Shown piece after piece: positions 8,186 through 54,963 of a stretch of 64,000 bases of DNA; position 1 is the stretch's first letter, and each line of letters opens with the position of its first letter. The notes below the pieces were generated by a model. That model worked only from the letters and a program-made list of their open reading frames with translations. It ran no database searches and was not told the DNA's origin. Where the stretch lies: contig NZ_JANIBJ010000027.1 in assembly GCF_024505185.1 (NCBI RefSeq), positions 1 through 64,000 on the forward strand. The letters run 5' to 3'. The translations under genes and the position numbers were made by a program. The DNA comes from Methylomonas subterranea (GTDB taxonomy: Bacteria > Pseudomonadota > Gammaproteobacteria > Methylococcales > Methylomonadaceae).

Positions 8186-8449
8186 ATGGAAGCAGAATCA
8201 ATCAAAATCAGCAACGGTAACGGCCAAACCCTATCCGAACATGTGCGCCAATCCGTCGAAGACTATTTCACCCACCTTAATGGCCACGATTCTTCCGGCC
8301 TGTACCAACTGGTCTTGACCGAAGTCGAGAAACCGCTGCTGGAAACCGCCTTAAAACATTCCGATTTCAATCAAAGTAAAGCCGCCAAAATCCTGGGTTT
8401 AAGCCGCAGCACCCTGCGTAAGAAGCTGGAACTTTACGGCATCGGCTGA
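8186..8449 (+). CDS. fis: Nucleoid-associated DNA-binding protein Fis
   Basis: The 87-aa protein is Fis, the growth-phase-dependent DNA-bending protein that activates rRNA promoters and assists recombination. The C-terminal helix-turn-helix ([19 protein letters not shown]) is nearly invariant in the family. The N-terminal region is shorter than the 98 residues of E. coli Fis, as is usual outside the enterics. Its ATG follows the dusB stop codon directly, so translation is probably coupled and expression depends on the dusB promoter and the hairpin ahead of it. Confidence 0.96.
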
Positions 8450-8481
8450 TTTCTTCTCCCTTTTCTTCTCTTGAGGATTGC

Positions 8482-10062
8482 ATGAATACCCCTTTGGGCA
8501 ACCATAAAAAAGTCACTCGGGCGCTGATCAGCGTCTCCGACAAAACCGGCGTTTTGGAATTTTGCCGGACCCTGAACAATCTGGGCATCGAATTACTCTC
8601 CACCGGCGGCACCGCCAAGTTGCTGGCCGAACAAAACATTGCCGTTACCGAAGTATCCGATTACACCGGCTTTCCGGAAATGATGGACGGCCGGGTAAAA
8701 ACCCTGCATCCCAAAGTGCATGGCGGCATTTTGGGCCGACGCGGCATCGACGATGCCGTAATGGCGGCAAGCGGCATCCAGGCCATCGATATGGTGGTGG
8801 TGAATCTGTATCCCTTCGAACAAACCGTGGCCAATCCAGATTGCGACCTGGAAACCGCCATCGAAAACATCGACATCGGCGGACCCAGCATGATACGCGG
8901 CGCAGCCAAAAACCATAACGACGTGGCGATTGTGGTCGACCCGGCCGACTATGCCGGCATTTTGGCCGAACTGCGGGCCAATGCCGGCGCGCTCGGCCAC
9001 GATACCCGTTTCAAACTGGCCTTGAAAAGTTTCGAGCATACCGCCCGTTACGACACCATGATCGCCGCCTATTTGAGCAAGGTCGTCGCCGCCGACAATT
9101 TCCCCGACACCCTCAACCTGCAGTTTCACCGCCTGCAAAGCATGCGCTACGGCGAAAATCCGCATCAAAACGCGGCTTTTTACGGCGAGAAAAATCCGCC
9201 GGCCGGCAGCATCGCCGCCGCCAGACAACTGCAAGGCAAGGAATTGTCTTACAACAACATCGCCGATGCCGACGCGGCGCTGGAATGCGTCAAGAGTTTC
9301 GACGACCAACCGGCCTGCGTGATCGTCAAACACGCCAACCCGTGTGGCGTCGCGATTGCCGACAACATTTTCGACGCTTACAACTTGGCCTACGCCACCG
9401 ACCCGACCTCGGCCTTCGGCGGCATCATCGCCTTCAACCGCGAACTGGACGAACAAACCGCCAGCGAAATCGCCGAACGCCAATTTGTCGAAGTCATCAT
9501 CGCCCCGCTAGTCTCGGAAGGTGCGAAAGCAGCCTTGGCGAAAAAGAAAAACGTCCGCGTATTGGAAACCGGCTTTTGGGCGACGACCCCGATTCCGGCA
9601 TTGGACTTCAAACGCGTCGGCGGCGGTTTGCTGGTGCAGGATAGAGACACCGGCCGCATCGCGGCGTCGGACTTGCAAGTAGTCAGCAAGCGCGCACCGA
9701 CCGAACAGGAACTGGCCGATTTGCTGTTCGTCTGGAAAGTGGCGAAATTCGTTAAATCCAACGCCATCGTTTACGGCAAGAACGGCCAGACCATAGGCAT
9801 AGGCGCCGGCCAGATGAGCCGGGTGTATTCAGCCAAAATCGCCGGCATCAAGGCCGCCGACGAAGGTTTGGAAGTGCCGGGTTCGGTAATGGCCTCCGAC
9901 GCCTTCTTCCCGTTCCGCGACGGCATCGACGCAGCGGCGGCGGCCGGCATCACCGCCGTGATCCATCCCGGCGGCTCGATGCGCGACCAGGAAGTGATAG
10001 ACGCCGCCGACGAACATAACATCGCCATGGTGTTGACCGGCATGCGGCATTTCAGACATTAG
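8482..10062 (+). CDS. purH: Bifunctional AICAR transformylase / IMP cyclohydrolase
   Basis: This 526-aa enzyme carries out the last two steps of IMP synthesis. The N-terminal MGS-like IMP cyclohydrolase domain (about 1-200) has [20 protein letters not shown] and [13 protein letters not shown]. The C-terminal transformylase has the catalytic Lys-His pair in VKHANPCG (Lys283, His284) and the conserved RYGENPHQ and PTSAFGG segments. Length is normal for the family. GAGG lies six bases before the ATG. It follows fis by 32 bases and could be read from the same transcript. purD, which often follows, is not here. Confidence 0.97.
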
Positions 10063-43374: not shown

Positions 43375-43462
43375 GGAGAGATGGCCGAGCGGTCGAAGGC
43401 GCACGCCTGGAAAGTGTGTATACGGCAACGTATCGAGGGTTCGAATCCCTCTTTCTCCGCCA
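43375..43462 (+). tRNA. tRNA-Ser (anticodon GGA)
   Basis: The gene folds as a class II tRNA: acceptor GGAGAGA pairs with TTTCTCC, with one G-U pair; the anticodon loop CTGGAAA (43407-43413) has GGA at 43409-43411; a long variable arm follows; the T arm is GAGGGTTCGAATCCCTC; discriminator G; encoded CCA at 43460-43462. It decodes UCC/UCU. The restriction-modification region begins about 420 bases downstream. Confidence 0.96.
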
Positions 43463-43506: not shown

Positions 43507-43887
43507 TACCCCCCCCTTGACCTGATTAGCGCGGGTCGGCTTCTCCTCGAAACAATAAAATCAGCCTAAGCGGCGACAATCTTACCGATACCTATAAAAG
43601 TAACGGGGCCCCGATCTGTTTGCTACACACCGAACTTTTCACCCTTCGCGCGAAAACTGATATTTTAATTTATCGGTTCATCAAGCGAACGTCACCCCGA
43701 GTCGGCAATATGCCGGGCAGCGTAAATCCAACCGGCAACACTGGACTACGTAATTTTACCGATCAAACACACCCCGGACTGAAACGCTGCATTTTTGCAT
43801 GGGTGTCTGTGTGGATATGTCAAACTCATGCGCTCGCGAACCCTTGGTCTGAGTCCTGATTTGCTTTAACGGAATAGCTACCTGTCA
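43507..43887. other. Gap between tRNA-Ser and hsdM
   Basis: The 381-base gap contains a C8 run near 43509-43516 and a small AT-rich part at 43650-43680 that could be a promoter for hsdM. A TTG-started frame (43620-43859) lacks a ribosome site and is not called. I find no second copy of the tRNA 3' end and no integrase. Confidence 0.4.
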
Positions 43888-46359
43888 ATGGCCATCAAAA
43901 AAACCGAACTTTATTCCTCCCTCTGGGCCGGTTGCGACGAACTGCGCGGCGGCATGGACGCCAGCCAGTACAAAGACTATGTGCTGACGCTGCTGTTTAT
44001 GAAGTACGTGTCCGACAAGTACAAGGGCGACCCATACGGCATGATCGTCGTACCCAATGGCGCCAGCTTCGACGACATGGTGGCCTTGAAAGGCGACAAA
44101 GAAATCGGTGAGAAGATCAACAAAATCATCAGCGCCCTGGCCGAAGAAAACGACCTCAAAGGCGTGATCGATGTCGCCGACTTCAACGACGAAGACAAAC
44201 TCGGCAAAGGCAAGGACATGATAGACCGCCTGTCCAAGCTGGTGGGTATTTTTGAAGGCATCGATTTATCCGCCAACCGCGCAGATGGTGACGACCTGCT
44301 GGGCGATGCCTACGAATACCTGATGCGCCACTTCGCCACCGAATCAGGCAAGTCCAAAGGCCAGTTTTATACCCCGGCGGAAGTCTCGCGCATTCTGGCT
44401 AAAGTCATTGGCATCAGCCAGGACACCCCGCAAGACGCCAGCGTTTACGACCCCACCTGCGGTTCCGGCTCGTTGTTGTTAAAAGCCAGTGACGAAGCAC
44501 CGCGCGGTTTGACCATCTTCGGTCAGGAAATGGACAACGCCACCAGCGCGTTGGCGCGCATGAACATGATTCTGCACAACAACGCCACCGCCAAAATCTG
44601 GAAAGGCAACACCATTGCCGATCCGCAATGGAAAGACGCCAACGGCAAGCTCAAAACCTTCGATTTCGCGGTCGCCAATCCGCCGTTTTCCAACAAAAAC
44701 TGGACCAACGGCATTAACCCACAAAAGGACGAATTTGACCGTTTCACCTGGGGCATACCACCCGATAAAAGGGGGGACTATGCCTTTTTGCTGCACATCA
44801 TCAAAAGCCTCAAATCCACCGGCAAAGGCGCGGTGATTCTGCCGCATGGCGTCTTGTTTCGTGACAAAGCCGAAGCGCGGATTCGTGAAAACCTGCTCAA
44901 GCAAGGCTATATCAAAGGCATTATCGGTTTACCTGCCAACCTGTTTTATGGCACCAACATTGCGGCCTGCATCATTGTCATTGATAAAGAACATGCTGCT
45001 CATCGAACCGGCATCTTCATGATCGATGCCAGCAAAGGCTATCTAAAAGACGGCAACAAAAACCGCCTGCGCACTCAGGACATTCACCTCATCGTTGATG
45101 CCTTTACCAAACAACTGGTTTTACCGCGCTATAGCCGCATGGTGGCGTTAAGCGAAATCGCCGCCAACGACTACAACCTGAATATTCCTCGCTACATCGA
45201 CAGTAGCGAACCCGAAGACCTGCACGATTTAAGTGGGCATTTGCAAGGTGGCATACCGAACCGCGACATCGATGCGTTGCAACATTATTGGCAGGTATTC
45301 CCTAGTCTGCGTCACAGCCTGTTTGCGGAACTTCGACCCGGCTACAGCCAGGCATTGATCTCGACCGCTCAAGTCAAACCCAGCATATTGAACCACCCGG
45401 AATTCATCGCCTTTGCCGAGCAAAGCATTCAACCATTTAAAGAGTGGTGCGAACGCGCAATGCTGAAAGATATTCCGTTCGGCCCCGCCGACGCGCTGCC
45501 TCCTGGCGCGTCGGCATACCGTCCATCCATGGACATAACCCCAAAAGCCATCATCCAGCGCATCAGCGAAGACTTGTTGCAAGCCTATTCGAAAAGCGCC
45601 TTGCTCAACAAATACGACGTTTACCAAATCCTGATGGATTACTGGGACGAGGTCATGCAAGACGATGTCTATGTGTTGGTACAAGACGGCTGGCAAGCCG
45701 GTAAAACCTTGCGCGAACTGGTGGCGCAGAAAGGCGAAAAGCTTAAAGAAACACCCGATCTCATCATCAATAAAGCCAAATACAAAGCCGAACTGATTCC
45801 ACCGGCCTTGCTGGTGGCGCGTTACTTCCAATCCCAGCAAACCCGCATCGACCAAATCCAGGCCGAGCTGGATGCCGCCAGCCAAGAGCTGGAAAGCTAT
45901 ATTGAAGAACACAGCGGCGACGATGGTCTGCTCAGCGAGGCCCTCAACGACAAAGACAAAGTGACCGCCGCGAGCGTCAAAGCCCGTTTAAAACTCGCCA
46001 CCGATACCGACGAAAAAGCCGCGCTGAAACAGGCGCAAAAATTGTTCGACGCCGAAGCGGAAGGTAAAAAATCCCTCAAGGAACATCAGGAAGCTTTGGA
46101 TTTGGCTGCGTTCAAACATTACGCCAGCTTGAGCGAAGAAGAGATCAAAACCCTGATCGTCGAAGACAAATGGCTGGCTAGTTTGCAGACCAACATTCAA
46201 ACCGAAATCGAGCGCGTCACCCAGCAATTGGCGAACCGGGTTAAAGAACTGGAAGAGCGTTATGCAGAGCCATTGCCTGCCATTACCCAATCGGTTGATG
46301 TCTTGAGTGATAAAGTCGCTGGACACTTGAAGGGGATGGGTTTGGAGTGGGCGGTATGA
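43888..46359 (+). CDS. hsdM: Type I restriction-modification DNA methyltransferase subunit
   Basis: The 823-aa N6-adenine methyltransferase begins with the HsdM helical domain (LWAGCDELRGGMDASQYKDY), then SAM-binding DPTCGSGSLLL near 190 and the catalytic NPPF in VANPPFSNK near 265. It is about 300 residues longer than the classical EcoKI HsdM; the extension (after about 480) is helical, with a coiled-coil-like stretch (QIQAELDAASQELESYIEEH). An in-frame palindrome encodes an apparent insert near residue 535. It methylates the site chosen by HsdS and forms M2S and, with HsdR, the restriction complex. Confidence 0.95.
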   Translation: MAIKKTELYSSLWAGCDELRGGMDASQYKDYVLTLLFMKYVSDKYKGDPYGMIVVPNGASFDDMVALKGDKEIGEKINKIISALAEENDLKGVIDVADFNDEDKLGKGKDMIDRLSKLVGIFEGIDLSANRADGDDLLGDAYEYLMRHFATESGKSKGQFYTPAEVSRILAKVIGISQDTPQDASVYDPTCGSGSLLLKASDEAPRGLTIFGQEMDNATSALARMNMILHNNATAKIWKGNTIADPQWKDANGKLKTFDFAVANPPFSNKNWTNGINPQKDEFDRFTWGIPPDKRGDYAFLLHIIKSLKSTGKGAVILPHGVLFRDKAEARIRENLLKQGYIKGIIGLPANLFYGTNIAACIIVIDKEHAAHRTGIFMIDASKGYLKDGNKNRLRTQDIHLIVDAFTKQLVLPRYSRMVALSEIAANDYNLNIPRYIDSSEPEDLHDLSGHLQGGIPNRDIDALQHYWQVFPSLRHSLFAELRPGYSQALISTAQVKPSILNHPEFIAFAEQSIQPFKEWCERAMLKDIPFGPADALPPGASAYRPSMDITPKAIIQRISEDLLQAYSKSALLNKYDVYQILMDYWDEVMQDDVYVLVQDGWQAGKTLRELVAQKGEKLKETPDLIINKAKYKAELIPPALLVARYFQSQQTRIDQIQAELDAASQELESYIEEHSGDDGLLSEALNDKDKVTAASVKARLKLATDTDEKAALKQAQKLFDAEAEGKKSLKEHQEALDLAAFKHYASLSEEEIKTLIVEDKWLASLQTNIQTEIERVTQQLANRVKELEERYAEPLPAITQSVDVLSDKVAGHLKGMGLEWAV
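45487..45515. repeat. Palindrome inside the hsdM coding sequence
   Basis: GCCGACGCG (45487-45495) and CGCGTCGGC (45507-45515) form a perfect nine-base stem within the hsdM frame. The encoded PADALPPGASAYRP looks like an insertion before the conserved ISEDLL region of HsdM. Confidence 0.55.
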
Positions 46360-46370
46360 TGGCGAACAAG

Positions 46371-46442
46371 GTAGGATGGGCTGACGCCAGGAAGCCCATC
46401 GTTAAAGCCGCATGGGCTGCGCTATCGCTTAGCCCATCCTAC
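46371..46442. repeat. 72-bp palindromic repeat between hsdM and hsdS
   Basis: The ends GTAGGATGGGCT (46371-46382) and AGCCCATCCTAC (46431-46442) are perfect 12-base inverted repeats. The unit resembles a dispersed intergenic repeat of gammaproteobacteria. It splits hsdM from hsdS, which usually overlap or nearly touch, and may weaken or regulate hsdS expression. Confidence 0.75.
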
Positions 46443-46459
46443 AAAGCTGGGTGGTCGTT

Positions 46460-47797
46460 ATGACGACAAGCAATCAGATAGCCGAAGCGAGTGTTAAGTA
46501 TTTGGAAGAAGGTGCTGGGCAAGTTGTGCCGGCTGGATATAAGAAAACGGAAGTTGGGGTTATTCCGTTGGATTGGCAGGCTACATCTTTAGGAGAAATT
46601 TCTGAAGTTCGAATGTGCAAACGAATTCTCGCTTGGCAAACAAGAAAAATTGGGGAAATTCCATTTTTCAAAATAGGAACGTTTGGAAGTCAGCCTGACG
46701 CATTTATTCCGACTTCTCTTTATGATGAATTTAAAGCGAAGTATTACTTTCCTAATAAAGGCGACATTTTAATATCCGCAGCGGGAACACTTGGAAAGTC
46801 CGTTATTTATGACGGGGAACCAGCATATTTCCAAGATTCAAATATCGTTTGGCTCGAAATTGACAAAGGCAAATTACTTAATGATTACTTATTTCACTAC
46901 TATAAGTTAATCAAATGGGCATCATCTGAAGGCAGCACCATAGCTCGACTTTATAATGGAATAATTCGAGCCTCGGTAATTGCTCTACCTTCAACCCAAG
47001 AACAAGCCGCCATTGCCAACGCCCTGTCCGATGTCGATGCCCTGATTAACGAGTTGGAAAAACTGATTGCCAAAAAACAGGCCATCAAAACCGCCACCAT
47101 GCAGCAACTCCTCACAGGCCGCACCCGCCTGCCACCATTCGCCCTGCGCGAAGACGGTACGCTAAAGGGCTATAAGCAGAGTGAGTTGGGGGATATTCCG
47201 GAGGATTGGGAGACTGTTCGATTTGGAGATATTGCCTACATTAGAAATGATAGAGTAAACCCAAGAGTTACTGGATGTGGCGAGTGGTGCGTTGAATTAG
47301 AACATATTAACTCTGCCGACGGAACTTTGAATGGAAGTACTGTTACTTCAATCCAGTCATCTTTGAAAAACAAATTTTCACAGGGTGATGTGCTTTTTGG
47401 AAAGCTGCGCTCTTATTTACGAAAATATTGGCTTGCTGACAGAACTGGTGTTTGTTCAACTGAAATATGGGTGTTACAACCAATCGGGGAACGAGCTATT
47501 TCACGGTATGTTTACGATTTAGTAACTACGGATAGTTTTATTGAAGCAGCTTCTGAAGCATATGGAACTCACATGCCAAGATCAGATTGGAAGGTTATTA
47601 AAGAATTTGCTCTAACAATCCCCTGTGTTGAAGAACAAACCGCCATTGCCACCATCCTGTCCGACATGGACAACGAAATCCAAACCCTGCAACAACGCCT
47701 GAGCAAAACCCGCCAAATCAAACAAGGCATGATGCAGGAACTACTAACCGGAAGAATCCGGTTAGTAAATGGAGAATTGAAAATGGAGAATGGATAA
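46460..47797 (+). CDS. hsdS: Type I restriction-modification specificity subunit
   Basis: The 445-aa product has two target-recognition domains separated by conserved helices: TRD1 (about 25-175), helix repeat LPSTQEQAAIANALSDVDAL with MQQLLTGRTRL, TRD2 (about 240-385) and a second helix repeat (EEQTAIATILSDMDNEIQTL, MQELLTGRIRL). Each TRD reads half of a bipartite DNA site. Both TRDs are visibly more AT-rich than the helical regions, a sign of domain shuffling. A GTG at 46451 is an alternative start; the ATG at 46460 is preferred. The final ten residues are encoded by an AT-rich repeat, and the stop overlaps the next ATG (TAATG). Confidence 0.92.
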   Translation: MTTSNQIAEASVKYLEEGAGQVVPAGYKKTEVGVIPLDWQATSLGEISEVRMCKRILAWQTRKIGEIPFFKIGTFGSQPDAFIPTSLYDEFKAKYYFPNKGDILISAAGTLGKSVIYDGEPAYFQDSNIVWLEIDKGKLLNDYLFHYYKLIKWASSEGSTIARLYNGIIRASVIALPSTQEQAAIANALSDVDALINELEKLIAKKQAIKTATMQQLLTGRTRLPPFALREDGTLKGYKQSELGDIPEDWETVRFGDIAYIRNDRVNPRVTGCGEWCVELEHINSADGTLNGSTVTSIQSSLKNKFSQGDVLFGKLRSYLRKYWLADRTGVCSTEIWVLQPIGERAISRYVYDLVTTDSFIEAASEAYGTHMPRSDWKVIKEFALTIPCVEEQTAIATILSDMDNEIQTLQQRLSKTRQIKQGMMQELLTGRIRLVNGELKMENG

Positions 47798-47844
47798 TGA
47801 ACGAGCAAAATCATTCTCAATTATCAACTGTCAATTCTCCATTT
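47767..47844. repeat. AT-rich inverted repeat at the hsdS / four-helix-bundle junction
   Basis: AAATGGAGAATTGA (47767-47780) and TCAATTCTCCATTT (47831-47844) are perfect inverted copies. They encode the end of HsdS (VNGELKMENG) and the start of the next protein (STVNSPF). Confidence 0.75.
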
Positions 47845-48198
47845 GCGAAGCCTAATCCGATTAGCGAAAAAAGCTTTGCCTTCGCCTTGCGCGTAGTAAA
47901 GATGTCGAAATTTTTGCAAAGCAATAAAAAAGAATACGTATTAAGTAAACAAGTTTTACGCAGTGGCACGGCGATTGGGGCTTTGGTGCGAGAGGCAGAA
48001 CATGCGCAAAGTAAGGCTGATTTTATCAACAAAATGAGTATTGCCCTTAAAGAAGCAAACGAAACCGATTATTGGATTGAGTTATTACATCAATCCGGCG
48101 AAATCACCCCGGAAAGCTATCAATCCATCAAACCGGATATTCAGGAGTTATTGAAACTCCTGGTTTCAATCGTCAAAACATCCAAGGCGAATCAATGA
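47797..48198 (+). CDS. Four-helix-bundle protein (IVS/Avd-like)
   Basis: The 133-aa product matches the small four-helix-bundle proteins found in 23S rRNA intervening sequences and related to Avd of diversity-generating retroelements: KSFAFALRVVKMSKFL, SKQVLRSGTAIGALVREAEHA, FINKMSIALKEANETDYWIELL. Such proteins are probably nucleic-acid-binding pentamers. The first 20 residues look like repeat-encoded filler. Its ATG overlaps the hsdS stop, giving translational coupling. No reverse transcriptase or variable repeat is in the window. Both sides carry an AT-rich 13-base inverted repeat, suggesting a mobile cassette. Confidence 0.88.
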   Translation: MNEQNHSQLSTVNSPFAKPNPISEKSFAFALRVVKMSKFLQSNKKEYVLSKQVLRSGTAIGALVREAEHAQSKADFINKMSIALKEANETDYWIELLHQSGEITPESYQSIKPDIQELLKLLVSIVKTSKANQ

Positions 48199-48222
48199 GC
48201 ATACATTTTCAACTTTCAATTA

Positions 48223-48235
48223 TCCATTTTCAATT
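48223..48235. repeat. Right inverted copy of the AT-rich repeat
   Basis: TCCATTTTCAATT here is the exact inverse of AATTGAAAATGGA at 47775-47787, so the four-helix-bundle gene is bracketed by inverted repeats. The repeat takes up the place where a ribosome site for the next gene should be. Confidence 0.65.
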
Positions 48236-48238
48236 TTC

Positions 48239-49393
48239 ATGCAAATAGAAGAATTATTAGCCATGATTGCTAATGGCGAAGATAGCCGCCACCAATTCAA
48301 GTCCACGATAAAACATGCGGATGCATTAGCGGCGGAAATGGCGGCTTTTAGCAATTCGAACGGCGGTTATATATTGATCGGTGTGAACGACGATGGCGGC
48401 ATTACCGGCCTTACTGCCGACGATATTAGACAGATCAATCAGCTGATTGCCAATGCGGCAACCAATAACATCAGGCCAGCCATTAACCCGTTGACGCAAA
48501 ATTTCGAATTACCCGAAGGCCGGGTGATTGTGGTCATGGTTGAGCAAGGCTTCAATAAACCCTATATGGATAATCAGGGGCTGATTTGGGTAAAAAATGG
48601 TGCCGATAAACGGAAAGTCACGGCCAGAGAAGAGTTGCAGCGGATGTTTCAAGCAGCGGCGTTTATTCACGCCGATGAAATGCCCGTGCCAGGTTCTTCC
48701 ATTGCTGATATTGATATTCCATTTTTTGAGGAGTTTTTTACCCAATTTATCGGTGAAGCATTTGCGGATCAGGAATTGCCTTCGGATCGGCTGTTGGAAA
48801 ATATGAATCTGATGAAAGCGGGGCAATTGAATGTCTGCGGTGCTTTATTGTTTGCCTTAAAGCCGCAGATTCGCTTGCCGATGTTCATTGTTAAGGCGGT
48901 TGCTTTTCCTGGCCGCGATATAACAGATGTCAATTACATTGATAGCCAGGATATTAATGGCAAGTTGACGGATGTATTTAGAAAATCCTTGAGTTTTATA
49001 CTTGGCAATATCCATCATGTTCAAGCCGGACAAAGCGTCAATTCCTTGGGTCAGCCGGAAATTCCGCGCATTGTTTTGGAAGAACTGATTGCCAACGCCT
49101 TAATTCATCGGGATTATTTTGTTTCCGCCCCCGTCAGAATTTTGGTGTTTTCTGATCGTGTGGAAATTATTAGCCCCGGTCATTTGCCGAATAATTTGAC
49201 TATCGAAAATATCAAACTGGGCAATTCCAATGTAAGAAACCCTATTCTGGCCTCTTTTGCGCCTCGCGTTTTGCCGTATCGAGGTTTGGGTAGCGGAATT
49301 TTGCGTGCCATTAAGGCTTATCCGAATATTGAGTTTATTGATGATCGTGACGGCAATGTTTTTAAAGCGGTAATTTGGCGCAAAATAGCGTAA
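48239..49393 (+). CDS. AlbA_2/Schlafen-like putative ATP-binding protein (copy 1)
   Basis: The 384-aa protein starts with an AlbA_2 (Schlafen AlbA-like) domain (about 1-130: EDSRHQFKSTIKHADALAAEMAAFSNSNGGYILIGV, WVKNGADKRKVTAREELQRM). The C-terminal half contains LEELIANALIHRDY and DRVEIISPGHLPN, typical of the RecG-C-terminal-like/HATPase_c_4 region, ending in a GLGSGILRAIK stretch. These proteins are often transcription regulators or defence components. No Shine-Dalgarno is visible; an AT-rich repeat lies directly before the ATG. It may depend on coupling to upstream translation. Confidence 0.85.
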   Translation: MQIEELLAMIANGEDSRHQFKSTIKHADALAAEMAAFSNSNGGYILIGVNDDGGITGLTADDIRQINQLIANAATNNIRPAINPLTQNFELPEGRVIVVMVEQGFNKPYMDNQGLIWVKNGADKRKVTAREELQRMFQAAAFIHADEMPVPGSSIADIDIPFFEEFFTQFIGEAFADQELPSDRLLENMNLMKAGQLNVCGALLFALKPQIRLPMFIVKAVAFPGRDITDVNYIDSQDINGKLTDVFRKSLSFILGNIHHVQAGQSVNSLGQPEIPRIVLEELIANALIHRDYFVSAPVRILVFSDRVEIISPGHLPNNLTIENIKLGNSNVRNPILASFAPRVLPYRGLGSGILRAIKAYPNIEFIDDRDGNVFKAVIWRKIA

Positions 49394-49406
49394 CGGGAGC
49401 TAGCAA

Positions 49407-49463
49407 ATGTTAAAAGTGGGTCAGCGCGAACGTGTGACACAGAAGGAAAGCAAACATGCGTAA
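49407..49463 (+). pseudogene. 18-codon remnant of an hsdR 5' end
   Basis: An ATG with a strong GGGAG seven bases upstream opens an 18-codon frame. Its first 12 residues (MLKVGQRERVTQ) match the start of the full HsdR at 51158 (MSKVGQKERATQ) at nine positions. After that it diverges into KESKHA and stops at 49461-49463, overlapping the start codon region of the next gene (49456). This looks like the 5' end of an ancestral hsdR cut off by insertion of the second AlbA_2 gene, and may now act as a leader peptide. Confidence 0.6.
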
Positions 49464-50676
49464 CGCCGAACTCTTGGAATTGATCGCCAATGGCGAAAAC
49501 TCGGGTGTCGAATTTAAGCGCGATGATATTCGTCCCGAGCAGTTAGCCAAGGAAATCGTGGCGATGGCTAATTTTCAAGGCGGAAAAGTCATATTGGGCG
49601 TGGAAGATGACGGCACGGTGAGCGGCATTCAGCGTCCAAACCTGGAAGAATGGGTGATGAATGTCATGCAGGACAAAGTTCATCCGCTCATGTTGCCATT
49701 TTATGAAGAAATCAAGCTGGATGACGGTAAGGCGGTTGCCGTAATTAGTTTTCCGCAAGGCATTTCCAAACCTTACGTGTTGAGGAATCGCGGCAAGGAA
49801 GAAATCTACATCCGTGTCGGCTCCACGTCGCGACTCGCCACCCGCGAACAGCAAATGCGTTTGTTTGAGCTGGGCGGCATGTTGCATACGGAAGTGATGC
49901 CCGTTCCGCGTACCGATATGAGTTGTTTGGATGATGCCCGTTTAAGCAATTATTTGAAAGATATTCTCAGAGACTCTGATGTGCCAAGCTCACCCGAAGC
50001 TTGGCAGGCTCGGTTATTGGGACTGGGTTTTCTCACCGAAGCGGCTGGCAACGTGTGTTGCACCATCGCCGGCTTGATGTTGTTTGGTAAGACGCCGCGC
50101 CGCTATTTAAAACAGTCTGGATTGCGTGTCATGGCGTTTAAAGGGCAAGACAAAGAATATCAGGCGGAACTGGATGATATTTTAGATGGACCGATGGTGG
50201 GTCGTTTTGATGTCGATTCTGCGGGTAAAAGACTGTTTGATCGAGGCATCATCGAACGGTTTATGGATGCAGTCAGCCCTTTTATCTCCCAAGAAGCGGG
50301 CGAGATAAACAAGAGCTTAAGGCGGGAAACCCAGTGGTTCTATCCCCTGGAAGCCGTAAGAGAGGCCTTGATCAATGCCCTGGCGCACAGGGATTGGACG
50401 CGCTTTGTGGAAATCGAAGTGGGCTCGTATGCCGATCGCTTTGAAGTGATCAGCCCCGGTGCGCTGCCGAATTCGATGACGATAGAAAAAATGAAAGCCG
50501 GTCAGCGTTCGCCGCGCAATACCCTCATCATGGAAGTGCTGCGGGATTACGGTTATGTCGATTATCGAGGCATGGGCGTGAGGACTAAAATTGTGCCGTT
50601 GACGCGAGCGCTGACCGGTAAAGAGCCGGAGTTTGTGGTAACGGATGATTACCTGAAAACCACTTTATACCGTTAG
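49456..50676 (+). CDS. AlbA_2/Schlafen-like putative ATP-binding protein (copy 2)
   Basis: The 406-aa protein has the same architecture as copy 1: AlbA_2 domain (about 1-130: NSGVEFKRDDIRPEQLAKEI, GGKVILGVEDDG, EEIYIRVGSTSRLATREQQ) and C-terminal EAVREALINALAHRDW, then DRFEVISPGALPNSMTIEKM and GYVDYRGMGVRTKIVP. The two are distant relatives, not recent duplicates. A good AAGGAA ribosome site precedes the ATG within the remnant hsdR frame. The middle (about 135-260) differs most from copy 1. Confidence 0.87.
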   Translation: MRNAELLELIANGENSGVEFKRDDIRPEQLAKEIVAMANFQGGKVILGVEDDGTVSGIQRPNLEEWVMNVMQDKVHPLMLPFYEEIKLDDGKAVAVISFPQGISKPYVLRNRGKEEIYIRVGSTSRLATREQQMRLFELGGMLHTEVMPVPRTDMSCLDDARLSNYLKDILRDSDVPSSPEAWQARLLGLGFLTEAAGNVCCTIAGLMLFGKTPRRYLKQSGLRVMAFKGQDKEYQAELDDILDGPMVGRFDVDSAGKRLFDRGIIERFMDAVSPFISQEAGEINKSLRRETQWFYPLEAVREALINALAHRDWTRFVEIEVGSYADRFEVISPGALPNSMTIEKMKAGQRSPRNTLIMEVLRDYGYVDYRGMGVRTKIVPLTRALTGKEPEFVVTDDYLKTTLYR

Positions 50677-50714
50677 CTGCAATCGAGTGACGATCTGGGC
50701 AGAATGGTAGATTT

Positions 50715-50912
50715 ATGAAATATTCTCGAGAGGGAAATGGCCGAATTTCCAGATTGCTAATGGACGTGATGGCGACTCAAGCGGGGTATGAGCCCCTGGA
50801 TTATTCGCTATGGGATGAACATAAAGATTTTTATTACAAGTCTATACAAGCAGGGCATGCGGGTGATTACCAGCACATAGGCCGTTTGGTCAGCGATATA
50901 CTCAAGAATTAG
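50715..50912 (+). pseudogene. C-terminal fragment of a Fic-family protein
   Basis: The 65 codons match the C-terminal end of a Fic domain: EGNGRISRLLMDVMATQAGY contains the GNGR-x2-R part of the HPFx(D/E)GNGRxxR motif, followed by PLDYSLWDEHKDFYYKSIQ. The catalytic His-Pro-Phe is missing: the frame upstream reads NGRFMKYSR, then a stop. The rest of the domain (more than 150 residues) is absent, so it cannot AMPylate. It is a decayed stump of a Fic toxin. Confidence 0.75.
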
Positions 50913-50915
50913 CGG

Positions 50916-51074
50916 TTAATCTGCTAATGCCAAATAGCGAAATTTGTTTTCACTGGATTTGAGTTTCTGCTCGACCACCTTAACGGATTCGCCTGTCTCG
51001 ATAGCACTGGAACTGGCAACCGCTCGGTAAATACGGTCTTTATTCACTTTCTTTACGACTTTTCGACCAGTCAT
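50916..51074 (-). CDS. Putative 52-aa protein, divergent from hsdR
   Basis: A 52-codon frame on the - strand starts at the ATG at 51072-51074, with AGAGG seven bases upstream, and ends at TAA three bases from the Fic fragment stop. The peptide is basic at the start (MTGRKVVKKVNKDRIYRAV) and contains SSSAIETGESV, loosely like the S/T-x3-E-G/N inhibitory motif of Fic antitoxins but with Thr after Glu. It may be an antitoxin-like gene left with the Fic stump, or an unrelated small DNA-binding protein. I cannot assign a family. Confidence 0.5.
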   Translation of the reverse strand: MTGRKVVKKVNKDRIYRAVASSSAIETGESVKVVEQKLKSSENKFRYLALAD

Positions 51075-51157
51075 GGCGTAACCTCTTTTTTGTTCTAGGG
51101 CATTATAGCAGTTTAGGTTTGTTGGCTAATAAGTTTGGGTTTAACGGAGTACATAAA

Positions 51158-54100
51158 ATGAGCAAGGTGGGTCAAAAGGAACGCGCCACACAACATCGTA
51201 TTGTCGACTTTTTTCAAAACGAGCTGGGTTATCGCTATCTGGGCGATTGGCAGGATCGCGAAGGCAACAAAAACATCGAAACCGGCCTACTGACCGCCTG
51301 GCTGCAAAAGCGCGGTATCAGTGATGCGCTGATCACCCGAGCCATACGCCAACTGGATACGGCGGCTGCACTGGGCGAAGGTAAAAAACTCTATTACGCC
51401 AACAAAGATGTGTATCGCCTGCTGCGCTATGGTGTGAAAGACAAGGAAGGCGCTGGCGAGCAGAATCAAACCGTCTGGTTGATCGACTGGAACAATCCGC
51501 AAGCCAACGATTTTGCTATTGCCGAAGAGGTTTCCATCAAAGGCGAGAACCTTAAGCGTCCCGATCTGGTGCTGTACGTCAACGGCATTGCCTTAGGCAT
51601 CCTGGAGCTGAAGCGCTCATCTGTGTCGGTTGCCGAAGGTATTCGGCAGAATCTGGATAACCAAAAGAAAGACTTCATCCGTAACTTCTTCACCACCCAG
51701 CAACTGGTGATGGCCGGTAACGATACCCAGGGCTTGCGTTACGGCGCCATCGAAACGCCGGAAAAGTATTATCTGGAATGGAAAGAGGATGTCGCCCATG
51801 ACTTTGCACACAAATTGGATTTTCATCTAAGCCGAATCTGCAATAAACAACGATTTTTGCAAATCATCCACGATTTTATGGTGTTCGATGCCGGTGTGAA
51901 AAAAACCTGCCGGCATAACCAGTTTTTTGGCATTGAAGCCGCCAAACAACATATCGCGCGGCGCGAAGGCGGCATCATCTGGCACACGCAAGGTTCGGGT
52001 AAAAGTTTGACCATGGTGTGGCTGGCCAAGTGGATACGGGAGAACGTCAAGGATAGTCGGGTTCTCATCGTCACCGACCGTACCGAGTTGGACGAGCAGA
52101 TCGAAAAAGTCTTCACCGGCGTCGAAGAAACCATCTACCGAACCAAGAGCGGCGCCGATTTGGTGGCTACCTTGAACCAGCCCAATCCATGGCTAGTGTG
52201 TTCTTTGGTGCATAAATTTGGCCGGCAATCCGAAGGCGAAGATGAAGGCGCCACCGATGCCTTTATTGAAGAACTGAAAAAATCCCTACCCAAGGATTTC
52301 AAGGTCAAGGGCGATTTGTTCGTGTTTGTCGACGAGTGCCACCGCACCCAATCAGGCAAATTGCACGAGGCGATGAAGTCGATTTTGCCCGCTGCCCTGT
52401 TTATCGGCTTTACCGGCACGCCGCTGCTGAAAAAAGACAAGAAAAAGTCGGTGGAGGTGTTTGGGCCGTATATCCACACCTACAAATTCGATGAAGCCGT
52501 GGCCGATGGCGTGGTGCTGGATTTGCGCTATGAGGCGCGCGACATCGATCAGCATATCACCTCGCAAAAGAAAATCGACGAGTGGTTCGAGGCCAAAACC
52601 CGCGGTTTATCCAACATTGCCAAAACCCAACTCAAGCAAAAATGGGGGACCTTGCAAAAGGTACTGTCCAGTAAGTCCCGCTTGCAGCAGATAGTCAACG
52701 ACATCTTGCTGGATATGGACACCAAGCCCCGGCTGATGGACGGCTACGGCAATGCGATGCTGGTGTGTGCCAGTGTTTATCAGGCTTGCAAGGCCTATGA
52801 AATGTTCAGTCAATCGGATTTGGCGGGTAAAGTGGCGATCGTTACCAGCTTTCAGCCCACCGCGACCAGTATCCGTGGCGAGGAAACCGGCGAAGGCCTG
52901 ACCGAAAAGCTGTTCAAATACGACATTTATCGCAAGATGCTGGCCGATTACTTTGAACAGCCCGCCGATCTTGCGGCCAACCGGGTGGAAGAGTTTGAGA
53001 AAGCCGTTAAAAAGCGCTTTGTCGAAGAGCCTGGGCAAATGCGCTTGCTGATTGTGGTGGATAAGTTGCTGACCGGATTCGATGCGCCTTCCGCCACCTA
53101 TTTGTACATCGACAAGCAAATGGCCGATCACAATTTGTTTCAGGCGATTTGCCGGGTCAATCGTCTGGACGGTGATGACAAGGAATACGGTTACATCGTC
53201 GATTACAAGGATTTGTTCCGTTCGCTGGACAAGGCGATTACCGATTACACCCAAGGCGCATTCGAAGGTTACGACAAGGATGATGTGGCTGGACTGCTGA
53301 AAGACCGTCTGGAACAGGCGCGGCTGGACTTGGACAATGCCTTGGAAATGGTCCGTACACTCTGCGAACCCGTGAAAGCACCTCGGGTAACGCAAGACTA
53401 CATCCATTACTTTTGCGGCGAATCCGGCGTTAATCAGCAGACGCTCAGCGAGAAAGAAGCGTTGCGTCTAACGTTGTATCAAAACGTCGCCAAGCTGATT
53501 CGAGCTTATGCCAATATCGCCAATGAACTGCCGCGGGCGGGATTTTCTGTCCTTGAAACGGAGCAGATTCGGGCGGAAGTGGCACATTACGAAAAAGTCC
53601 GTGATGAGGTCAAGCTGGCTAGTGGCGATTTGGTCGATATGAAGCGGTTTGAACCGGCTATGCGGCATTTGCTGGATATGTATATTCGCGCCGATGCTAG
53701 TGAACAACTGATGGATTTTGAAGAGCTGGGCCTGATTGAACTTATCGTTGAAAAAGGCATAGAAACCACGGAATCATTACCGGAGAGCATCCGCAAAAAT
53801 CAGGATTCCATGGCGGAAACCATCGAAAACAATGTCCGTCGCACCATCGTCGATGAAAACCCGGTCAACCCCAAATATTACGAACACATGTCGGTATTAC
53901 TAGATGAGTTGATTAAGCAGCGTCGGCAAAAAGCCATTGACTATCAAGAATACTTGGAACGCATTCGAGAGTTATCCCGCAAGGTCATCCACCCTGAACA
54001 CACCAATTCAAGTTATCCGGTTTCCATGGATACTCAAGCTAAACGGGCGTTCTTCGACAACTTTGGCAACGACGAGGTGCTGGCCACCAAAATCGATAAC

Positions 54101-54250
54101 GCGATCCGCTACACCAAAAAAGCCGATTGGGTGGGTGATCGATTTAAAGAGCGAGAAATTGCCAATGCCATTCGGGAAGAAACAACAGGCTATGACATCG
54201 ATATTCCGCGCGTGATGGAGTTGGCTAAAGCGCAAAAGGATTATCACTAA
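51158..54250 (+). CDS. hsdR: Type I restriction endonuclease/translocase subunit
   Basis: The 1030-aa subunit has an N-terminal PD-(D/E)xK nuclease (Asp in DLVLYVNG, ELK in GILELKRS, near residues 140-160), a superfamily 2 motor with Walker A HTQGSGKSLTMVW, DEAD-type box VDECHRTQ, GFTGTPLL, and motif VI ICRVNRL, followed by a helical C-terminal region that docks on HsdM. The start at 51158 has GGAG eight bases away; a TTG at 51119 is open but not favoured. All visible motifs are intact, so it is likely functional despite the rearranged upstream region. It overlaps the M48 gene by one base. Confidence 0.95.
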   Translation: MSKVGQKERATQHRIVDFFQNELGYRYLGDWQDREGNKNIETGLLTAWLQKRGISDALITRAIRQLDTAAALGEGKKLYYANKDVYRLLRYGVKDKEGAGEQNQTVWLIDWNNPQANDFAIAEEVSIKGENLKRPDLVLYVNGIALGILELKRSSVSVAEGIRQNLDNQKKDFIRNFFTTQQLVMAGNDTQGLRYGAIETPEKYYLEWKEDVAHDFAHKLDFHLSRICNKQRFLQIIHDFMVFDAGVKKTCRHNQFFGIEAAKQHIARREGGIIWHTQGSGKSLTMVWLAKWIRENVKDSRVLIVTDRTELDEQIEKVFTGVEETIYRTKSGADLVATLNQPNPWLVCSLVHKFGRQSEGEDEGATDAFIEELKKSLPKDFKVKGDLFVFVDECHRTQSGKLHEAMKSILPAALFIGFTGTPLLKKDKKKSVEVFGPYIHTYKFDEAVADGVVLDLRYEARDIDQHITSQKKIDEWFEAKTRGLSNIAKTQLKQKWGTLQKVLSSKSRLQQIVNDILLDMDTKPRLMDGYGNAMLVCASVYQACKAYEMFSQSDLAGKVAIVTSFQPTATSIRGEETGEGLTEKLFKYDIYRKMLADYFEQPADLAANRVEEFEKAVKKRFVEEPGQMRLLIVVDKLLTGFDAPSATYLYIDKQMADHNLFQAICRVNRLDGDDKEYGYIVDYKDLFRSLDKAITDYTQGAFEGYDKDDVAGLLKDRLEQARLDLDNALEMVRTLCEPVKAPRVTQDYIHYFCGESGVNQQTLSEKEALRLTLYQNVAKLIRAYANIANELPRAGFSVLETEQIRAEVAHYEKVRDEVKLASGDLVDMKRFEPAMRHLLDMYIRADASEQLMDFEELGLIELIVEKGIETTESLPESIRKNQDSMAETIENNVRRTIVDENPVNPKYYEHMSVLLDELIKQRRQKAIDYQEYLERIRELSRKVIHPEHTNSSYPVSMDTQAKRAFFDNFGNDEVLATKIDNAIRYTKKADWVGDRFKEREIANAIREETTGYDIDIPRVMELAKAQKDYH

Positions 54251-54963
54251 TGCCGCAGGTTAAGATTGGCTCGTTGTCGCTGCAATTGAATCGCAAGGCG
54301 ATTAAAAACCTGCATATCAGCGTACTGCCGCCCGATGGTCGCATTCGTGTGTCCGCCCCGGAAAAGATGACTGACACCGCCATTCGCATGGCGGTGGTCA
54401 GCCGTATTCCTTGGATCAAAAAACAGCAGCGCGACTTTGCCGCGCAACCTCGGCAATCGGATCGAGAAATGGTCAGCGGCGAATGTCACTATTTTTGGGG
54501 AAAACGTCACCGTTTGAATCTTGTCGAACGAGTGGGTCGGCATGAAGTTAAGGTATCCGGCGGCAAAATTCATCTATTCGTCAATCCAGGTACATCCGTT
54601 GAAAATCGTGCCTTGGTCTTGAGCGAGTTTTATCGCACTCAGCTTAAAACCCAAATCGAAAAGCTCATGCCCTATTGGCGGCAACGCATGGCAGTTGAGC
54701 TTGCCGGCTGGAGCGTGAAAAAGATGAAAACCAAATGGGGCAGTTGCAACATCGACGCCAAACGTATTTGGTTAAATTTGGAATTAGCCAAAAAACCAGC
54801 CGAATGCCTGGAATATATCCTGGTTCATGAGCTGGTGCATTTGCTGGAACGTAAGCATAACGAACGTTTTCGTGCCCACATGGACAAATTCATGCCAAAT
54901 TGGCGGGAAAGGCGGGATATTTTAAATAAGCTGCCGTTGGCGTTTGAAAGCTGGTCGTATTAA
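54250..54963 (+). CDS. M48/YgjP-like metallopeptidase
   Basis: The 237-aa protein has the zinc-binding HELVHLLERKHNERF (HExxH plus a downstream His) in a SprT/YgjP-like setting, with KWGSCNIDAKRIWLNLELAKKPAECLEYILVHE typical of the family. It lies one base into the hsdR stop (TAATG), a location often seen with type I restriction systems, so it may process or regulate the restriction subunit, although this is inference. Confidence 0.88.
   Translation: MPQVKIGSLSLQLNRKAIKNLHISVLPPDGRIRVSAPEKMTDTAIRMAVVSRIPWIKKQQRDFAAQPRQSDREMVSGECHYFWGKRHRLNLVERVGRHEVKVSGGKIHLFVNPGTSVENRALVLSEFYRTQLKTQIEKLMPYWRQRMAVELAGWSVKKMKTKWGSCNIDAKRIWLNLELAKKPAECLEYILVHELVHLLERKHNERFRAHMDKFMPNWRERRDILNKLPLAFESWSY

Follow-up and report, generated by a model that had tools for sequence, protein, structure and literature searches.

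A type I restriction locus of Methylomonas subterranea with variable cargo between hsdS and hsdR and a four-helix-bundle gene bounded by inverted heptamer tracts

The restriction locus and its interior

The locus described here is a type I restriction-modification (RM) operon of Methylomonas subterranea, together with the genes lying between its specificity gene hsdS and its restriction gene hsdR; it was analysed in a stretch of 64,000 nucleotides (the window; positions 1 to 64,000 of contig NZ_JANIBJ010000027.1, assembly GCF_024505185.1). The components HsdM, HsdS (with two recognition domains) and HsdR are all present with open frames. An earlier note on this DNA had listed between hsdS and hsdR a four-helix-bundle (4HB) gene, two AlbA_2/Schlafen-like genes, a remnant of hsdR, a Fic stump and a 52-codon open reading frame (ORF) on the opposite strand, and all of these were recovered close to where it had put them, by ORF listing, domain scans and a position matrix for the hsdR remnant (Table 1). 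Its description of the junctions as either TAATG overlaps or repeat-rich could be narrowed: the overlaps occur at two junctions, hsdS/4HB and hsdR/YgjP, and the repeat-rich sequence is made up of tandem 7-nt units, which flank the 4HB gene as roughly five copies on its upstream side and as an inverted tract on its downstream side. Among named genomes the best match to the window HsdR was that of Methylomonas methanica R-45363 (92%; locus L120, on the same contig as L064, which is placed in the same genus as the window).

The hsdS–hsdR gap as a cargo slot

Relatives of the locus, designated by L numbers, were collected from the order, from the class and from named genomes. They were selected for similarity of HsdR, and phylogenetically they are not independent of one another. 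Gap length was counted in 92 of them (omitting L120, L131 and 13 loci with no hsdS upstream in the stretch) and was bimodal: 22 gaps were of 60 bp or less, 17 of these being 4-bp overlaps of the stop and start codons, two were intermediate and 68 exceeded 250 bp, the median for all 92 being about 1.5 kb. With L131 included, which has a 1706 bp gap with cargo, the longer class comes to 69 of 93. The assumption in the earlier note that hsdM, hsdS and hsdR normally sit tightly together is thus not supported for this HsdR lineage. The cargo varies from locus to locus. Of the 117 cargo ORFs without a label that were at least 100 amino acids long, 98 were scanned and the top 25 families listed; the listed matches included GmrSD_N (24 proteins), GmrSD_C (11) and zeta toxin (five), and further PIN, DarT, Kiwa KwaB, YhcG and PDDEXK nucleases. 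AlbA_2 genes occurred in 12 of 91 gaps (155 kb; L131 included, and with the AlbA_2 gene of L177 scored outside the gap though it directly precedes hsdR), whereas the 1,500 kb around the gaps had two, one of them again immediately ahead of hsdR. The hsdS–hsdR gap in this HsdR lineage is a cargo slot in which defence genes come and go. In L071 the slot holds a DUF262-like gene (by reading), an AAA ATPase gene, a 325-codon gene and an AlbA_2 gene, followed by a broken hsdR; in L066 only the tail of a 325-codon gene of the L071 type remains, ahead of AlbA_2.

Three loci (L122, L124 and L135) carry a TrlF–AlbA_2 pair in the slot. A 2025 paper describes the hsdS–hsdR site as a potential recombination hotspot (PMC12255303), and three of the organisms that it treats are those of L135, L124 and L122; we identify the RNA-binding protein given for them as AlbA_2 and the ATPase as TrlF. 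The RptR-type I RM-DarTG2-M48 island of enteropathogenic Escherichia coli and relatives, as described in that paper, resembles the window in having the hsdS–hsdR slot and a peptidase gene after hsdR. Unlike that island, the window has no intact pair in the slot; it has two orphan AlbA_2 genes, remnants of hsdR and Fic, and a 4HB gene between heptamer tracts. An rptR gene was not found: the single candidate tested, a 79-codon ORF before hsdM, had no match to solved structures. TAGCTA-like sites were fewer in the window than expected by chance, with one TAGCTA at 43875.

The 3' part of the interval has a close counterpart. From 50726 to 54962 the window is continuous with the DNA of L121 at 80% identity, and L121 (HsdR 90% identical) has the order hsdS, intact Fic with HPFREGNGR, antisense ORF (by reading) and hsdR. 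The window stump aligns only with residues 144–203 of the 205 of PDC-S04, and its motif HPFx(D/E)GNGR is incomplete, the stump starting inside it at REGNGR, after the His. Judged from these alignments, the stump and the antisense ORF are the remains of an older Fic cassette trimmed to its 3' end, L121 showing the older state. Together with L064, in which the same 4HB gene is followed by a different cassette, L121 supports the stepwise insertion suggested by the earlier note.

The antisense ORF was found in nine of 274 genomes of the class, its own included. Of the eight other loci six have a Fic gene that adjoins it convergently, one has a Fic fragment and one a zeta-like gene, and in L202 and L207 there was no match to the window hsdR or hsdS within about 1.5 kb. 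It contains SSSAIE(T)(G/N), which resembles what we take to be the Fic-inhibiting motif. We propose the antisense ORF as a candidate Fic antitoxin. A zeta-toxin-like gene occupies the place of the L121 Fic gene in L064 (9611–10389) and in L205 (1434–2018), with the same antisense ORF alongside; in L064 a 65-codon gene lies downstream of it.

A further trace lies between the two AlbA_2 genes. The stub (KVGQRERVTQ) scored 30.6 bits with a matrix derived from 97 hsdR starts; nothing in 854 kb of flanking control DNA scored above 13.5. Its short frame ends within the start of AlbA_2 gene 2. The 12 hsdR-like codons imply that an hsdR start once followed AlbA_2 gene 1. In a scan of 91 loci and the window, in which 70 gaps of at least 60 bp were covered, stubs were also found in L086 (27.0 bits) and L088 (17.6 bits), each, by reading, beside an AlbA_2 gene or an AlbA_2-like fragment.

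Of the sequences outside the slot, the palindromic repeat-like sequence between hsdM and hsdS has two weaker partial matches elsewhere in its own genome. The tRNA-Ser gene at 43375–43462 has no exact 16-nt copy elsewhere in the window, and by that test there is no sign of a tRNA attachment site.

Table 1. Positions of the genes and sequence features of the locus (window coordinates), with three plasmid 4HB genes in their own coordinates
Feature	Position	Strand	Evidence
hsdM, type I methyltransferase subunit	43888..46359	+	N6_Mtase 2e-99, HsdM_N 3.6e-16, PDLC03027 1365 bits
Palindromic repeat-like sequence (GTAGGATGGGC...GCCCATCCTAC) filling the hsdM–hsdS gap	46368..46446	.	two weaker partial matches in the own genome
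hsdS, type I specificity subunit	46451..47797	+	Methylase_S 1.2e-37, two stretches
5' heptamer tract (AATGGAG AATTGAA AATGGAG AATGGAT AATGAAC), at and past the hsdS end	47762..47800	.	inverted repeats I1–I4
4HB gene, PF05635/TIGR02436 four-helix bundle (S23, IVP)	47797..48198	+	PF05635 3e-26, TIGR02436 3.1e-29, 2rld 3.7e-40
Inverted copy of the 5' heptamer tract, within the start of the 4HB ORF	47811..47849	.	I1, 79% complementary over 39 nt
3' inverted heptamer tract	48201..48239	.	I2–I4; unit AATTGAA on minus strand
AlbA_2 gene 1 (SLFN_AlbA_2 + HATPase_c_4; Schlafen/AlbA_2 + GHKL), probable orphan of a TrlF–AlbA_2 cassette	48239..49393	+	
hsdR-start stub, 12 hsdR-like codons then no homology	49407..49463	+	ATG 49407
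AlbA_2 gene 2 (SLFN_AlbA_2 + HATPase_c_4), probable orphan of a second TrlF–AlbA_2 cassette	49456..50676	+	
Fic stump	50715..50912	+	homology to intact Fic from 50726 (REGNGR), catalytic His gone
52-codon antisense ORF, conserved and convergent with neighbouring Fic genes; antitoxin candidate	50916..51074	-	
hsdR, type I restriction subunit	51158..54250	+	PDLC03044 1715 bits, HSDR_N, SWI2_SNF2
YgjP-like metallopeptidase gene, usual hsdR neighbour in the lineage	54250..54963	+	3.4e-60
Plasmid 4HB genes at cas2/cas1 or csx2/cas1	L329 1561-1908; L338 2489-2845; L340 2519-2887		

The AlbA_2 genes and the missing TrlF partner

AlbA_2 genes 1 and 2 are the candidate effector genes of the slot and lie on the hsdM–hsdR strand; both ORFs are intact with conserved domain motifs and neither has a C-terminal extension. 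Relatives of gene 1 stand beside TrlF at L109–L112, L114 and L116, as does the one found in the slot of L122. In L065, L066 and L071 a relative of gene 2 (80–83%) immediately precedes hsdR, at a distance of 188 bp in L066 and with a broken hsdR in L071; others (82% each) belong to the TrlF–AlbA_2 pairs in the slots of L124 and L135. The partner ATPases exceeded the NCBIfam TrlF cut-off (NF045780) in 12 of 12 tested. The window genes are kin to the second gene of the TrlF–AlbA_2 system as defined by that family, while no TrlF-family ATPase gene was found between hsdS and hsdR in the window by ORF list and domain scan. Away from this hsd lineage, L116 (9486–17025) carries two different AlbA_2 genes about 5 kb apart, with TrlF and an 834-codon gene.

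A profile of both AlbA_2 clades matched SLFN12 (about 1e-4), 5yd0 (0.0019) and SLFN14 (0.0032). The predicted structure of gene 2 (mean predicted local distance difference test score, pLDDT, 88.5) matched 3lmm, a RecG-related domain, the SAMD9 tRNase domain (1.4e-4), SLFN13 (6.5e-4) and histidine-kinase ATP-binding domains. At the E-E-D catalytic acid places, which we take to be those of SLFN13, gene 2 keeps E14, E19 and D51/D52. Gene 2 is also constrained, with nonsynonymous and synonymous divergences (dN and dS) of 0.125 and 1.8 by comparison with L065; dS against most AlbA_2 relatives was not computable. The AlbA_2 and GHKL layout is shared with the Schlafen-minimal-histidine-kinase proteins with a winged helix-turn-helix that are described near bacteriophage exclusion (BREX) systems (PMC12839542), as well as with Schlafen and SAMD9 tRNase domains; in contrast to the proteins of that description, those of the window have no C-terminal extension for such a helix-turn-helix, and gene 1 appears to lack one of the three acids. 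The AlbA_2 proteins are probably RNA-cutting partners of TrlF, in which case the orphans may be inactive or may work with another ATPase.

The two genes are probably two orphans of two TrlF–AlbA_2 cassettes and no pair. The earlier note had suggested that they may form a new pair, acting in defence or regulation and linked to the restriction system. This suggestion could draw on the intact ORFs with their motifs, on the strong constraint on gene 2 and its position before hsdR without TrlF in L065, L066 and L071, and on the two different AlbA_2 genes of L116. We regard it as improbable, because the proteins are only 27% identical in alignment and fall in separate clades, many members of each of which have their own TrlF partner, because the hsdR stub separates the genes and because none of the 91 gaps examined besides the window has two. 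It is less improbable that an AlbA_2 gene by hsdR acts as a regulator of the restriction operon, controlling transcription or restriction instead of serving as an effector, and was retained without TrlF for that reason. Such a gene comes next before hsdR in several lineages (L065, L066, L071, L088 and L090), and some longer slot relatives have a putative winged-helix-like C-terminal stretch (by reading); both window proteins are without that extension, however, the tRNase domains of Schlafen and SAMD9 are matched in sequence and in fold, and 24 of the 98 other slot proteins match GmrSD_N, while others match known toxins. A regulatory role is therefore possible but unlikely.

Taken as a whole, the locus is very likely a YgjP-linked type I cargo slot that has been through several rounds of cassette turnover. 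The sequences show that an older Fic cassette with its antisense ORF was cut down to a 3' stump; that two Schlafen-GHKL genes, whose kin are often the second gene of a TrlF–AlbA_2 pair, are without TrlF here; that hsdR formerly started after AlbA_2 gene 1, as the 12-codon stub records; and that the 4HB gene with its inverted heptamer tracts, presumably a separate small insertion element, lies at the end of hsdS. The genes of the slot probably ride with the restriction operon as back-up (second-line) effectors, on the model of PrrC, which is described as the product of an effector gene embedded in the type I operon EcoprrI and kept silent by the restriction enzyme (PMC3874165, PMC12707154, PMC2610378). 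The likeness is that of an effector-type gene inside a type I operon; the protein families differ, and silencing by the restriction enzyme in the present locus would be a prediction from that analogy.

A number of results weigh against this turnover reading. Among 11 loci fetched with gene 1 relatives TrlF lies alongside in six and is not alongside in five (L113, L115, L117, L118 and L119). For gene 2 relatives (15 loci: L065, L066 and L071–L083) TrlF alongside was confirmed in three; five (L075, L078, L080, L082 and L083) have a similar neighbour of 880–930 codons as a candidate TrlF gene, and seven have no such gene directly alongside. Orphan AlbA_2 genes are therefore not rare and a TrlF-free role is possible. 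The gene 1 clade (gene 1 and eight aligned relatives, 9/9) has Gln at the presumed place of the second SLFN acid, and hsdR stubs were found in just three of the 70 scanned gaps, the window included. Promoter-like and terminator-like sites scanned across the locus were at chance level, so that a single transcript is not established. A mosaic test gave no sign that the 5' part of hsdR had been supplied, together with AlbA_2 gene 2, by an L065-like donor; along most of hsdR the closest or nearly closest relative was L064.

Heptamer tracts and PF05635 genes

The 4HB gene lies between hsdS and AlbA_2 gene 1, outside any 23S rRNA gene, and its product scored 92.1 bits to PF05635 (Pfam cut-off 33.8); the nearest solved relative is 2rld, which has five chains. 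By self-match at a lag of 7 nt its 5' tract ranks in the top 0.02% of window positions and its 3' tract in the top 0.09%. The RNA fold of the region shows competing pairings, a local hairpin or a long-range pairing with the 3' tract, with a weak z-score of -2.4. The 4HB gene of L064 is at the same place and 94% identical, but has a different cassette behind it; its synonymous divergence from the window gene is 0.117 compared with 0.663 for hsdR, which suggests recent exchange. L064 also has a tract resembling the window heptamer tract in the middle of hsdS (8440–8510). Like the window and L064, L235 and L236 have before the 4HB gene a sequence that looks like the 3' end of hsdS (LLTGR-RLV).

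Similar tracts were found beside PF05635 genes generally. For 58 loci from the order and class, the 120-nt flanks had a lag-7 self-match of 0.404 upstream and 0.406 downstream (control 0.256) and a lag-14 self-match of 0.387 and 0.380, while the remaining lags from 2 to 15 were near control. The lag-7 signal persisted with one locus per 60% identity cluster (n = 24; 0.443 upstream and 0.419 downstream) and was absent from 293 other small ORFs (0.25). At the level of single loci, the upstream flank exceeded the 99% control threshold in 25 of 58 and the downstream flank in 26 of 58, against 4 of 325 controls; 37 loci did so on at least one side, 14 on both and 21 on none. Complementarity between the flanks was 20.7 in the inverted orientation, with 12.3 for direct, 10.3 for shifted and 10.1 for mismatched-locus comparisons, and 17 of the 58 loci passed the shifted-control maximum of 23. 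Of the 25 loci with both tracts, 14 had units that were reverse complements with at most one mismatch, compared with 3% for units of different loci. A shared consensus, ARTKRNN, was weak, with 27% full matches versus 11% at random and with the rotation of the units chosen with that pattern.

The same signal was found in other classes of the phylum (24 loci, many of them from one genus-level group; lag-7 0.397 and 0.438, control 0.248) and on plasmids of Spirochaetota, Bacillota, Bacteroidota, Cyanobacteriota and Chloroflexota (18 loci, from 18 of 25 records opened; 0.504 and 0.447, control 0.261). Eleven of the 18 plasmid loci, in Spirochaetota, Bacteroidota and Cyanobacteriota, exceeded the lag-7 threshold on a flank; the seven below it (L326, L329, L331 and L339–L342) include one from Bacillota and two from Chloroflexota. 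Inverted complementarity was over the control maximum in 16 of 18, including the Bacillota locus and one Chloroflexota locus, and direct flank similarity exceeded inverted in L325, L329, L332, L340 and L341. Inverted heptamer tracts with a locus-specific unit thus commonly flank PF05635 genes, clearly in four phyla and more weakly in two more. The loci behind this comparison are the window (47762–48239), L209–L265 and L296–L342. We found no publication stating this for PF05635 generally, in literature searched mostly at title and abstract level; only the rRNA element of Coxiella came up.

Nine of the 18 copies on plasmids have hsd, cas or helicase/methylase genes around them. One, unannotated and interrupted by two in-frame stops, separates hsdS from hsdR on a Monoglobus (Bacillota) plasmid (L326, 1501–1839); three cyanobacterial copies lie between cas2 and cas1 (Anabaena and Nostoc) or csx2 and cas1 (Pseudanabaena); three are by helicase and methylase genes and two between DUF1156 and Swt1-HEPN genes, which we take to be defence settings. 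The cysD–cysN junction is a second insertion hot spot. Of 114 genomes with a match 30 were fetched (L266–L295), three of them unreadable; of the 27 readable junctions 14 were empty (30–92 nt), four contained a 4HB element, two (L281 and L268) a gutted element that keeps its two tracts, and seven (L273, L284, L287, L289, L290, L294 and L295) other sequence.

These data bear on whether the tracts are ordinary genomic microsatellites with a common small gene nearby by chance. Heptamer copy number is reported to differ among Coxiella strains (PMC4990558), as it does in simple repeats, and the 21 loci with no tract above threshold on either side would also fit. Chance proximity is nevertheless highly improbable: the fetched loci (2.3 Mb) contained three strong heptamer tracts, each no more than 362 nt from a 4HB gene, whereas strong tracts of periods 5, 6, 8 and 9 were not found there and those of periods 10 and 11 once each, and neither the lack of signal at the other small ORFs nor the matching of units within but not between loci is expected of microsatellites.

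The nearest described counterpart is the 23S rRNA intervening sequence of Coxiella burnetii, which has three tandem heptamers ahead of the start codon of its S23 protein (PMC4990558). That paper discusses inverted repeats as a feature of 23S intervening elements and cites the Xanthomonas S23 protein as a homopentamer of four-helix bundles. The window element resembles the Coxiella one in its S23-family protein and in the heptamers before the start, but lies between protein genes of a defence operon, has another heptamer unit and has a matching inverted tract downstream. The accessory protein Avd of diversity-generating retroelements is also homologous to PF05635 (PMC10053308); in contrast to such elements, no reverse transcriptase was present among the nine proteins encoded from 43888 to 54963.

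On the simplest account the 4HB element is an insertion, and its ring protein probably binds its own heptamer arrays, as RNA or DNA. TRAP, by analogy, reads spaced triplets in RNA. More tentatively, although we think it quite possible, PF05635 genes could form the centre of an insertion element, small and widespread, that occurs in rRNA genes and in operons (often of defence) and whose ends would be inverted, locus-specific heptamer arrays that the ring protein would recognise or help to make, with one subunit per heptamer.

As a restriction locus, the window is a variant of a known arrangement, and it is the association of heptamer tracts with PF05635 genes that deserves follow-up. In this single slot the exchange of defence cargo in a restriction operon can be followed, together with the marks of each round: 12 codons from the start of an hsdR, the stump of a toxin gene with its candidate antitoxin still present, and partner genes left as orphans. 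The origin and spread of 23S rRNA intervening sequences and of the S23 protein have been called unclear (PMC4990558). A heptamer hallmark common to the rRNA form and to many forms outside rRNA genes allows a direct test of binding and mobility.

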